The translations under genes and the position numbers were made by a program. A stretch of DNA of 38,200 nucleotides from a virus. Shown in pieces: positions 1,883-10,200 of the stretch; positions within the stretch are counted from its first letter, which is position 1, and every line of letters begins with the position of its first letter. The notes under the pieces are model-generated. The model was not told the origin of the DNA and did no database searches. It was given only the letters and a program-made list of their open reading frames with translations. Location: positions 1 through 38,200 of the IMG/VR virus record IMGVR_UViG_3300030106_003158; one strand, written 5' to 3'.

Positions 1883-2028
1883 TTTATTTAGAAGTAATAT
1901 GGCAAGCAATTAAAGCTAATGCTATTGGTATACTAATTGGTTTAGGTGGTTTGATATGTACATTGAGTATGTTCATGCCAAGACATTGGAAAATATTTAA
2001 ACTTATAAAATGGATTAAAAAGAAATGA
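1879..2028 (+). CDS. Small membrane protein, 49 aa
   Basis: A short gene of 49 residues starting at an ATGA overlap with the upstream stop and ending in an ATGA overlap with the following PEP-CTERM-like gene. One hydrophobic segment (AIGILIGLGGLICTLSMFM, residues 14-32) is followed by a strongly basic tail (IKWIKKK), giving an N-out or N-in single-pass topology with a cytoplasmic basic end. Size and layout fit a holin or spanin-like accessory lysis protein, but nothing proves it. The perfect overlaps on both sides support that it is a real gene. Confidence 0.65.
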   Translation: MIYLEVIWQAIKANAIGILIGLGGLICTLSMFMPRHWKIFKLIKWIKKK

Positions 2029-2585
2029 AGAAAATAATTATATGGATAGCGTTTATAATAGTGTTAATGTTAGCTAGTATTACTAGAGGTGACTTATACA
2101 TATATAATTTAGAAGCTACACTTACAGAAAGTAATGTTACTTATGTAGACCAAGAGCCATTTTATTATGATATATTTCATATACAAACAGATGGGTATGC
2201 AACTTTAGCATTTGATAACTATGATGCTGATTTAGGTTCAAGTAATCCTAACTATGATTATAATGACCCATACCTTTATTTATATACAATAGAAGAACCT
2301 GCGTTTGTTGGGTTTGGTAGTGGGTCAGTACAACTTGTTTTGTTTGATGAAGATGACGATAGCAATGAAGATAGCCCTGAAGGATTATATTTCTTTTTAG
2401 ATGATGTTTTAATGCACAATCAATTAGTAGCAGTAGTATCTAGTTATGACCCATACGTTGTAGGTACAGTAGATTTTACAGTAACAAGCGACCAACCATT
2501 AAGTATTATACCCGAACCTGCTGCTTTAAGTTTAATAACATTAGGTGGTATAGGTTTATTGTTTTTAAATAGGAAATTAAGATAA
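2025..2585 (+). CDS. Secreted protein with PEP-CTERM-like sorting signal
   Basis: A 186-residue secreted protein. Residues 1-22 form a signal peptide (Lys-Lys, long hydrophobic core, ITRG). The middle (25-158) is a Tyr/Asp-rich beta-strand domain with an acidic run (DEDDDSNEDSPEG), resembling pre-peptidase C-terminal (PPC)-type domains. The C-terminus carries the tripartite exosortase signal: the motif PEP at residues 163-165 within IPEPAALSLITLGGIG, a hydrophobic segment, then the basic end NRKLR. In bacteria such signals direct processing by exosortase (EpsH family) and surface or exopolysaccharide association. The gene is locked into the late operon by ATGA and TAATG overlaps, so it is a phage gene and not a stray insert. 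No exosortase is in the window; the host would have to supply it. Confidence 0.75.
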   Translation: MKKIIIWIAFIIVLMLASITRGDLYIYNLEATLTESNVTYVDQEPFYYDIFHIQTDGYATLAFDNYDADLGSSNPNYDYNDPYLYLYTIEEPAFVGFGSGSVQLVLFDEDDDSNEDSPEGLYFFLDDVLMHNQLVAVVSSYDPYVVGTVDFTVTSDQPLSIIPEPAALSLITLGGIGLLFLNRKLR

Positions 2586-4347: not shown

Positions 4348-4506
4348 ATGTCTATGTATCGTATTGTTCACAAGGAAAGTGGTAAAGAAACAACAGTTGA
4401 AGTAAAAGGTTTTGATAGAGATGAAATGATAAGAAAGGCTAGTGAACAAATTGGTATAGAAATAAGCCCCACCGAAGTAGGGCATATACGCATACTACCT
4501 CTTTAG
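4348..4506 (+). CDS. Small protein, 52 aa, last gene of the late strand
   Basis: A 52-residue protein with the strong site AAAGGAGTT 5' of the ATG (a second ATG is two codons on). It reads as a small mixed alpha/beta fold: YRIVHKESGKETTVEVKG, then a helix DRDEMIRKASEQIG, then a strand HIRILPL. I do not recognise it. It lies 109 bases after the holin-like gene, following the candidate structured leader. Its last 12 bases overlap tail-to-tail with the end of the riboswitch-controlled peptide gene on the other strand. Possible role: a small regulator; nothing in the sequence settles it. Confidence 0.6.
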   Translation: MSMYRIVHKESGKETTVEVKGFDRDEMIRKASEQIGIEISPTEVGHIRILPL

Positions 4507-4551
4507 GATTTTTTTGTATGCTACTCCTCGATAAGTAAGGATAACTTCCAT
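4495..4551 (-). CDS. Riboswitch-controlled 18-aa peptide, DUF4278-like
   Basis: Only 18 codons long, reading MEVILTYRGVAYKKILKR. The core ILTYRGVAY is the DUF4278 signature, found in the short 'downstream peptides' that follow glutamine riboswitches in cyanobacteria and cyanophages. The ATG has a good site (GGGAG, 4558-4562) 6 bases upstream, just after the aptamer. A longer in-frame GTG at 4584 lies inside the aptamer and is rejected. The stop overlaps the end of the plus-strand gene 4348-4506 by 12 bases. The peptide's target is not known. In cyanobacteria related riboswitches control nitrogen-assimilation genes, so an effect on host glutamine metabolism is a reasonable inference. Confidence 0.75.
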   Translation of the reverse strand: MEVILTYRGVAYKKILKR

Positions 4552-4567
4552 GTCACTCTCCCATGTT

Positions 4568-4620
4568 AGCGTTCCTTCGGTCACTTTGACCTACTTCCGA
4601 CCATACAGGTTGAACGAGTT
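4568..4620 (-). promoter_or_regulatory. Glutamine riboswitch (glnA / Downstream-peptide class)
   Basis: On the minus strand the segment shows the conserved aptamer core of this class: CGUUCA, then CGGAAGUAGG, then CCGAAGGAACGC. Three helices form. P1 is CGUUC (4612-4616) with GAACG (4570-4574). P2 is ACC-UGUAU-GGU. P3 is GGUC-AAAGU-GACC. Downstream is the GGGAG ribosome binding site of an 18-codon DUF4278-like peptide, the typical target of the Downstream-peptide variant. The aptamer binds L-glutamine in known members. The sequence match is by memory of the consensus, and ligand binding here is inferred. Confidence 0.88.
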
Positions 4621-4628
4621 ATAGTACG

Positions 4629-4657
4629 TCATTACATGAATTGTAAAAAATTGTCAA
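4629..4657 (-). promoter_or_regulatory. Sigma70-like promoter of the riboswitch transcript
   Basis: A perfect -35 box TTGACA (4657 to 4652) is followed after 17 bases by TAATGA (4634 to 4629). Transcription would start near 4622, right at the 5' edge of the glutamine aptamer. The -35 overlaps the stop codon of the zinc-ribbon gene, so the riboswitch peptide can be expressed independently of the early operon. Confidence 0.6.
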
Positions 4658-4797
4658 GAAAATTTATGATAAACTTCTATATGTGTTTGACAGTTAGGAC
4701 AAGATAAATTTGTAACAATATCAAAATCTTCTGATTCTTCTTCTATGTCGTGGTCAGCACCCCATATTAGTTCTGTATTACAATGCCAACAATTCAT
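4654..4797 (-). CDS. Small zinc-ribbon protein, 47 aa
   Basis: A 47-residue protein with two CxxC knuckles: C3-W-H-C6 and C33-P-N-C36. The first is followed by NTELIWGADHDIEEE and the second by a short strand (HIEVYH). This layout recurs in cyanophages and other marine phages. Its start is within an ATGTAATG junction with the preceding gene (1-base overlap), and its stop codon lies inside the -35 box of the riboswitch promoter. It probably binds one zinc ion; the partner (nucleic acid or protein) is unknown. It is the last gene of the long early operon. Confidence 0.75.
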   Translation of the reverse strand: MNCWHCNTELIWGADHDIEEESEDFDIVTNLSCPNCQTHIEVYHKFS

Positions 4798-6125: not shown

Positions 6126-6718
6126 TAGAAAGGAATATCCTCTTTATCTTCTTCGCCATAACCCGACTCATAAGATGAGAAGTCCATAGCAATTTCGTAT
6201 AAGAAATTTTCCTGTTCTTCCCAATCCCAAACCTCTTTACCTTTTACAGTTTTCTTGGTTGGTGGTGGCATACCATTAGGTGAATCTTTGGTAAACTTCA
6301 TAGGAACATTAGTTCCATTTTGTTTAATAAACAAGAAATGACGTTCACGTTCTCGGTCATAACCTAGCCCCAAGAATAATGGTTGCGTCTTATCTATGTT
6401 CGGCATACGTTTCGCATACTGACCAAAGAATTGTGAATCTACAGGTATTTGCACTTTGAATCTTGAGCCTGTGTCATCTTCTAACTCTGTTATGTAGTTA
6501 GTTCCCCACTCTGACTCATCAACAAAAGTACCTTTGATTGTACCTTCTATACCTGTGTATTGTAATTCTTTAATTACCTTACCTGCATTAGCACCTTTCT
6601 CAAGTGTGCGTTCTACAGCTTTTTCGTCTTCTACCCCTTCGGGTAATCTAATCGTAAATTTTCCTCTTACGATTGTTACTATTTTACTTGTTCTATTAGA
6701 TGTATTTGTTAATCCCAT
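6125..6718 (-). CDS. ssb: Single-stranded DNA-binding protein
   Basis: A 197-residue protein that reads as an OB-fold: TSKIVTIVRGKFTIRLP, GIEGTIKGTFVDESEWGT, FKVQIPVDSQF, LFLGLGYDRERERHFLFIKQNG. The C-terminus is acidic and ends EEDKEDIPF, the hallmark tip (D-I-P-F) that bacterial SSBs use to recruit partner proteins. A Pro/Gly-rich linker precedes it. The start has an AAGGAGAAACAG site. It lies downstream of a strong hairpin (6762-6778). SSB with host-type C-terminal tail fits a phage that borrows the host replisome. Confidence 0.8.
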   Translation of the reverse strand: MGLTNTSNRTSKIVTIVRGKFTIRLPEGVEDEKAVERTLEKGANAGKVIKELQYTGIEGTIKGTFVDESEWGTNYITELEDDTGSRFKVQIPVDSQFFGQYAKRMPNIDKTQPLFLGLGYDRERERHFLFIKQNGTNVPMKFTKDSPNGMPPPTKKTVKGKEVWDWEEQENFLYEIAMDFSSYESGYGEEDKEDIPF

Positions 6719-9267: not shown

Positions 9268-10200
9268 TTAATAATAATTACTTATGTAACAACCAACGCA
9301 CTCCATAGCTTTCTTGATATGTAAACACCCTTGATAGTTACTCTCTATTTGTTCTCTTGTTACCCACTTGGTAGCAAATCCTTGTTTTGTATCAGAACCG
9401 AATGCTACAACCATAGCACCTTCAACATCTTGCTCATCAACTTTACTGTTCATGGAATAAATACTAATTTGCATTGCGTGTTTTGTTGAGGGTCTTTTAC
9501 TAGACTTCCAATCTAACAAGCAACGAACACGTTTACCTTTATGTATGATAGTACCTGCAAAGTCGGGCTGACCCGTAACCATAAGGTCATTGTCATAGAA
9601 TCTTTCTTCGCCCCATTCGAATTTAGGCTCATACTTTTTAACAAAGTTATCCCAACCTTTAGGTAATAATTCTTCTTCATATGGTTTCTTTCTAAACCAA
9701 TTCTCTATTGCATCATGCATATTAGTACCATTCTCTGCAGCGAGATTGAGTGCTTCTTCATATGCTTCGTATGTATCACCTTGACCAAATGCCCACTTAA
9801 TTAATCCCTCACTACTTCCATATGGGTCAAAGTATTTTAGAAACTGTGTGCAACGCAAATAATTACCACCAATAATTTTACCATTATCAATTTTTACTTC
9901 TCCAATCTCAAATGTCATGGCTTGGAATTGACCGATATGTTTTTCATTCCATTTAATATCTGAATCATAATAAGCATAGTCTATAATCTTTGCCGTACCA
10001 TATTTAAGTGCTGACTTTTGTGCTGAATCTGATTTAGGAACATACCCTATATGCTCATCTTTATACATAACCTTAACAGCGTTAGGGTCGTGTTCGTTTG
10101 TTGGCTCTGCTTGAAAAGATACCACACCATTGGGTCGTAACTCTTTTAACTTTGGGTTTCTATCTGTTGCGAATGTAACTCCTGCTAATCTTAATAACAT
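9268..10200 (-). CDS. HIRAN domain fused to RecB-like PD-(D/E)XK nuclease
   Basis: A 310-residue protein. Residues 5-75 form a HIRAN domain (GVTFATDR...GVVSFQAEPTNEHDPNAV...IGYVPKSDSA), a fold that binds DNA ends and 3' tails. Residues 150-260 carry the RecB/Cas4-type nuclease motifs: GTNMHDAIE (H162, E166), PDF (D213), DWKSSK (D230, K232) and QISIY (Q244, Y248). Likely role: DNA-end processing for recombination or host DNA degradation. It overlaps the upstream gene by one base (TAATG). There is no Cys cluster for an iron-sulfur centre. A HIRAN-RecB fusion is unusual; I have not been able to check how widespread it is. Confidence 0.8.
   Translation of the reverse strand: MLLRLAGVTFATDRNPKLKELRPNGVVSFQAEPTNEHDPNAVKVMYKDEHIGYVPKSDSAQKSALKYGTAKIIDYAYYDSDIKWNEKHIGQFQAMTFEIGEVKIDNGKIIGGNYLRCTQFLKYFDPYGSSEGLIKWAFGQGDTYEAYEEALNLAAENGTNMHDAIENWFRKKPYEEELLPKGWDNFVKKYEPKFEWGEERFYDNDLMVTGQPDFAGTIIHKGKRVRCLLDWKSSKRPSTKHAMQISIYSMNSKVDEQDVEGAMVVAFGSDTKQGFATKWVTREQIESNYQGCLHIKKAMECVGCYISNYY

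Follow-up and report, generated by a model that had tools for sequence, protein, structure and literature searches.

A phage glutamine-I riboswitch unit ahead of an 18-codon YRG peptide gene, with a predicted translational ON switch reaching into the reading frame

How could a gene of only 18 codons be placed under the control of a metabolite, and what might it do for a phage? This question is raised by a locus of viral DNA in which a complete, independent glutamine-sensing module of about 160 bases had been predicted on the minus strand. The answer that we favor is that the locus is a self-contained phage unit that most likely acts as a translational ON switch for an 18-residue peptide, by a mechanism that is itself a prediction. 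The window analyzed here, a stretch of 38,200 nucleotides, is part of a 39,162-base IMG/VR virus record from an uncultured phage. Its structural genes are nearest to those of the HTVC010P-type Pelagibacter podoviruses (27-39% identity), and it also encodes a DnaB-like helicase, a replication initiation protein and an exonuclease. The riboswitch-peptide unit, on the minus strand, is positioned between the gene for a 47-residue CxxC protein (4654-4797, minus strand), an upstream neighbor that stands outside the unit, and a convergent gene for a 52-residue product taken from the open reading frame list (4348-4506, plus strand), which runs across the terminator and the final codons of the peptide gene and has a homologous 52-residue reading frame in the relative L122. 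As clues to the host, psbA was looked for in 14 virus records and tRNA genes in the window, and neither was found; a blastn search against annotated phages matched the neighboring CxxC gene and not the riboswitch. Elsewhere in the window, the product of a minus-strand gene at 9268-10200 has a HIRAN domain (E 1.7e-8) and resembles exonucleases, and the C-terminus of a 186-residue protein (2025-2585, plus strand) gives a near-threshold PEP-CTERM match (18.4 bits against a cut-off of 20.7).

The aptamer and its distribution among phages

The original prediction had named two Rfam models for comparison. The glnA model (RF01739, glutamine-I) matches positions 4618-4566 on the minus strand with 50.5 bits against a cut-off of 35 (E 2.5e-8), the sole Rfam match anywhere in the window, while the Downstream-peptide model (RF01704, glutamine-II) does not reach its cut-off in the window, which assigns the element to the glutamine-I class. 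The segment carries CGUUCA, CGGAAGUAGG and CCGAAGGAACGC, as had been predicted, and its core letters match glutamine-I. The three helices that had been noted are also present, as P1 (4616-4612/4574-4570), P2 (4610-4608/4602-4600, only 3 bp) and P3 (4591-4588/4582-4579). When these helices and the terminator were placed on the family alignment, 100% of the cells in their 19 pairs were paired and seven pairs had changed on both sides, comprising all four of P3, one of P2 and two of the terminator, with P1 invariant; slid controls gave only 0-1 such pairs. The covariation score was 0.340 for the named structure and at most 0.062 for the slid controls, and P3 types alternate among the relatives, for example GGUC/GACC versus GCAG/CUGC. 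This pattern of covariation indicates that the three-way junction of P1, P2 and P3 has been retained. By its sequence, 4618-4566 is a glutamine-I riboswitch aptamer, which would be expected to bind glutamine.

Relatives were gathered from IMG/VR with two scans, an exact one for the first 25 aptamer bases and one for the motif YRGVAYKK of the peptide. Fourteen contigs besides that of the window have the unit, giving 14 distinct sequences with that of the window included, which is more than chance would produce. Major capsid proteins, matched in 12 of 14 records (the window's included), range from 67-74% down to 32-35% identity with that of the window. The unit is nearly identical while the capsid proteins diverge, which implies either strong conservation or transfer as a module. 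One relative, a contig of 62,102 bases (L122/L128/L253), holds two copies of the unit together with two major capsid genes; two related phages were probably merged in its assembly.

Looser patterns extend the picture. At least 120 stretches in viral contigs fit a relaxed aptamer pattern, and at least 120 matches were obtained with patterns that join the aptamer 3' end to a YRG reading frame. Marine Alpha- and Gammaproteobacteria (SAR11-like, SAR86 and SAR92; L133, L135, L145, L187 and others) also often carry glutamine-I-type aptamer sequences, which precede genes for glutamine synthetase, an ammonium transporter, glutamate synthase and an ATP-grasp protein; a 2018 review had described the class as restricted to cyanobacteria (PMC6316151).

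The peptide gene and its signals

The signals expected of an autonomous gene surround the aptamer. The -35 box TTGACA (4652-4657, minus strand) overlaps the stop codon of the upstream CxxC gene, and TTGAC is kept in the window and in 12 of 12 distinct relatives with upstream DNA, though the spacer diverges, so that this half of the predicted promoter stands. The other half fares less well: the presumed -10 element TAATGA (4629-4634, minus strand), 17 nt after the -35 box and with a start site expected near 4622, matches TATAAT at 2 of 6 positions, and a promoter scan did not list the window's promoter. Relatives mostly have TAnnnA at this site (TATAGA, TATGGA, TAAAGA), and the -10 element appears weak, the weakest part of the claim for a complete unit. 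Downstream of the aptamer, the Shine-Dalgarno sequence GGGAG (4558-4562, minus strand) stands 6 nt before the ATG (4551-4549), as predicted, and a similar purine run is present in all relatives. Transcription would end at an intrinsic terminator, GCCCUAC-UUCG-GUGGGGC (4483-4466; 4456-4483 with its U-rich tail, minus strand), a GC-rich hairpin followed by a U-rich tract that is conserved among the relatives and whose stem covaries. The proposal of a complete module of about 160 bases is thus borne out, and this terminator and the switch hairpin described below, both missed by the original prediction, now belong to it.

The reading frame itself (4495-4551, minus strand, stop TAG) encodes MEVILTYRGVAYKKILKR, a basic peptide with a single YRG motif, at the coordinates originally given. 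Across the 14 distinct sequences it has eight variable sites, six of them synonymous (binomial P 0.004 for the synonymous excess), and the other two together make one change, T6Y, which gives YYRG, an equally common variant in the YRG family. The frame is free of indels in all 14 sequences; the leader ahead of it ranges from 17 to 20 nt, varying by up to 3 nt, and the frame is therefore not kept upstream of the ATG. A longer in-frame candidate from a GTG at 4584 (29 residues) was rejected, as it starts inside the aptamer and the leader differs by 1-3 nt among relatives. This pattern of change argues that the 18 codons are a real gene under purifying selection, a conclusion that holds for the frame as a whole; the invariance of its last codons says little because they overlap the convergent gene.

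The peptide had been called DUF4278-like, and the likeness is one of motif and not of family membership. The PF14105 profile gives 13.8 bits against a cut-off of 25.3 (E 0.076), with the match covering positions 3-11, or 9 of 57, so that by score the peptide falls below DUF4278 membership and shows motif resemblance only. Comparison of the peptide with solved structures yielded none similar.

A predicted switch within the coding sequence

Variation within the reading frame is unevenly spread. Codons 1-5 (ATGGAAGTTATCCTT) are invariant at the nucleotide level, while 6 of the 8 codons from 6 to 13 vary; the probability of codons 2-5 all staying unchanged by chance is 0.03, and codon 4 is an invariant, rare ATC (19 of 520 Ile codons in the reading frames counted). 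Folding offers a reason for this invariance, since the bases of these codons are predicted to pair with the aptamer 3' strand, codons 2-5 doubling as an anti-aptamer strand. The predicted ligand-free OFF hairpin (4537-4577, minus strand) joins AAGGA 4577-4573 to UCCUU 4541-4537, GCU 4570-4568 to AGU 4546-4544 and CAUG 4565-4562 to CAUG 4552-4549, placing the AUG inside a stem and the Shine-Dalgarno sequence mostly in the loop. It is the predicted fold in 14 of 14 distinct sequences. The paired bases of its long helix are invariant among these closely related sequences, so that the helix offers no covariation except for a matched indel in the inner stem, which is CAUG/CAUG in 3 sequences and CAUUG/CAAUG in 11. 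Against dinucleotide shuffles the hairpin has a z of about -3 to -4.3. In the six sequences tried, it outdoes 98.6-99.3% of alternative synonymous codings sampled with phage codon use, and none of the 43 other native start regions of the phage gives as strong a hairpin when set behind this aptamer strand. Two other pairings were discarded. An 8-nt complement between the aptamer core (GAAGUAGG) and the terminator (CCUACUUC) looked like a switch and is lost in several relatives (e.g., L125, L126 and L131), which marks it as a coincidence, and a possible helix between the core AAGUAGG and CCUUACUU of codons 5-7 does not hold up in L130, L263 and L266.

The OFF hairpin uses positions 4574, 4573 and 4570, and P1 therefore cannot form simultaneously. 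By our mapping, base 4570 would correspond to the G of the C1:G59 pair, which contacts glutamine in the known riboswitch structure (PMC6698751). In all 14 sequences, then, the ligand-free fold is predicted to hide the start signals and to exclude P1, as expected of a translational ON switch. Without glutamine, the aptamer 3' strand (AAGGA and GCU, which supply parts of P1 and its ligand-contacting end) would pair with codons 2-5 (AGU and UCCUU) and lock the AUG in the OFF hairpin. Binding of glutamine to the nascent aptamer would allow P1 to form and release codons 2-5, after which only a residual stem of 4-6 bp, worth about -3 to -5 kcal/mol, would be left and ribosomes could start. Because the OFF hairpin and P1 are mutually exclusive, glutamine should favor P1 and free the AUG. 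We infer this ON direction from the modeled folds, and it agrees with the behavior of both glutamine riboswitch types, which activate on glutamine (PMC6316151); the glutamine-II type acted as an ON switch in a GFP fusion, with an alternative structure proposed to hide the ribosome binding site (PMC6698751).

In RNAfold, which leaves out tertiary contacts, the free OFF fold is favored over the aptamer fold by 4 to 8 kcal/mol, and the class is called low-affinity in the title of Ren et al. 2015 (cited in PMC11477058). The OFF fold would thus win by more than a weak ligand repays at equilibrium, so that the switch would have to be kinetic. Together, the modeled gap and the low affinity of the class suggest that control is exerted co-transcriptionally.

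Other readings of the unit must be weighed against this one. The aptamer could be real and control translation with the hairpin into the reading frame being incidental, regulation then arising from simple accessibility of the Shine-Dalgarno sequence next to P1. The loop position of most of that sequence in the OFF fold would suit such an arrangement, as would the prediction that in most other phage aptamer-YRG units, among the matches listed, the aptamer 3' strand pairs with leader bases and not with the reading frame. An incidental hairpin does not, however, account readily for the fact that codons 1-5 are invariant when codons 6-13 change synonymously, for the matched indel in the inner stem, or for a stability with z of about -3 to -4 that falls in about the 1% tail of synonymous recodings, and we regard this reading as unlikely.

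Somewhat less probable still is that the unit serves mainly as a glutamine-responsive regulatory RNA, with the short frame contributing to RNA stability or cis effects. Yfr6, an RNA of about 250 nt with a short reading frame and a Downstream-peptide motif in its 5' part (PMC2864571), provides a precedent, and the transcript of about 160 nt expected here has its own terminator. Such a role would leave unexplained the synonymous pattern, the absence of indels in the frame and the choice of T6Y, itself a common YRG-family variant, as well as the similar YRG peptides of 16-17 residues behind glutamine aptamers in other phages. The unit might finally be a non-functional relic, left over from a larger DUF4278 (IF17-like) gene of the host together with its riboswitch, in which only the N-terminal YRG motif survives, as the sub-threshold match to 9 of 57 profile positions could be read. 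Conservation of the aptamer, -35 box, terminator and peptide across divergent phages makes such a vestige very improbable. The preferred reading is still the translational ON switch for the peptide.

Known systems and possible role

The closest functional counterpart is Synechocystis gifB, which encodes IF17 and has the same aptamer family and core (RF01739) ahead of a short gene whose product starts with a YRG motif, in a known case switched ON by glutamine (PMC6316151). The present unit differs from it in being phage-borne, in encoding 18 instead of 149 residues and in having its predicted anti-aptamer strand inside the reading frame. In IF17 the N-terminal DUF4278 part is reportedly not needed for inactivation (PMC6316151), which speaks against simply equating the peptide with a glutamine synthetase inactivating factor (IF7/IF17). 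The glutamine-II units of picocyanobacteria and Yfr6 are likewise autonomous short transcripts, with reading frames of 17-100 residues and a conserved peptide motif (PMC2864571), and act as ON switches (PMC6698751), but their aptamer architecture is another one, and RF01704 stays below its cut-off in the window. Short YRG-type peptides behind such type II aptamers have already been published (PMC2864571, PMC6316151). Glutamine riboswitches in phage genomes are known as well, and viral contigs often contain aptamer-YRG units. OM43 phage Melnitz, where the riboswitch stands with a two-piece tmRNA, Pelagibacter phage Mosig and T4-like cyanophages carry such riboswitches (PMC9004378, PMC9964418, PMC9602691), and the parts of these reports consulted describe neither a short YRG peptide nor a platform embedded in a reading frame. 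The wider literature searched, which covered few subscription papers, likewise holds no description of a phage micropeptide or platform of this kind.

Among IMG/VR phages, DUF4278/YRG proteins with a (T/Y)YRGV motif are found behind the same aptamer, and one of them, the 55-residue product of L048, scores 36.9 bits and so exceeds the PF14105 cut-off. These proteins usually have 31-58 residues and two or three YRG repeats among the matches listed, in contrast to the 18 residues and single YRG of the window's peptide. Single-YRG products of 16-18 residues are, among the matches listed, those of the MEVILTYRGVAYKKILKR family and of the HMO-2011-like L086, L091 and L095, a lineage assigned from L095. 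Within the MEVILTYRGVAYKKILKR family, the partner of the aptamer strand falls in the reading frame in 16 of 16 loci folded. The features that appear new are the platform embedded in the reading frame, the minimal 18-residue peptide with a single YRG, and the switch predicted in 14 of 14 distinct sequences. If true, this would show plainly that an expression platform can be accommodated within a very short reading frame, and the predicted switch could be broken by synonymous changes alone.

The unit may let the phage respond to host nitrogen status, as originally suggested, and its peptide would have a target in the host, perhaps one of nitrogen metabolism. The 23-residue sP26 modulates glutamine synthetase in Methanosarcina mazei (PMC7760959), and by analogy an 18-residue modulator of a nitrogen enzyme is possible. 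More tentatively, phages of several lineages might independently carry stand-alone, glutamine-responsive YRG micropeptide genes whose products bind a target in the nitrogen metabolism of the host, for instance glutamine synthetase, and retune the infected cell as glutamine rises, with the coding sequence here serving as the switching strand; we consider this broader scheme less likely than not. With a gene of about 160 bases that is conserved across divergent phages, the function of YRG (DUF4278-type) micropeptides becomes directly testable, and the unit adds to the evidence for RNA sensing of a host metabolite by phages.

Variations on this arrangement occur in other contigs. Tandem glutamine-I aptamers stand ahead of YRG reading frames in L048, L158 and L267, and short phage reading frames of a non-YRG type (e.g., MTKRFTHLFK... 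and MNFKWDLTKF...) lie directly behind glutamine aptamers in L006, L007, L011, L012, L025 and L046, the product of L006 matching phrog_32989, of unknown function. In L254, a phage glutamine-II aptamer (6183-6236, plus strand; RF01704, 52.9 bits) precedes a small protein that ends in LRYRGVAYKK, indicating that phages use both aptamer types with YRG products.
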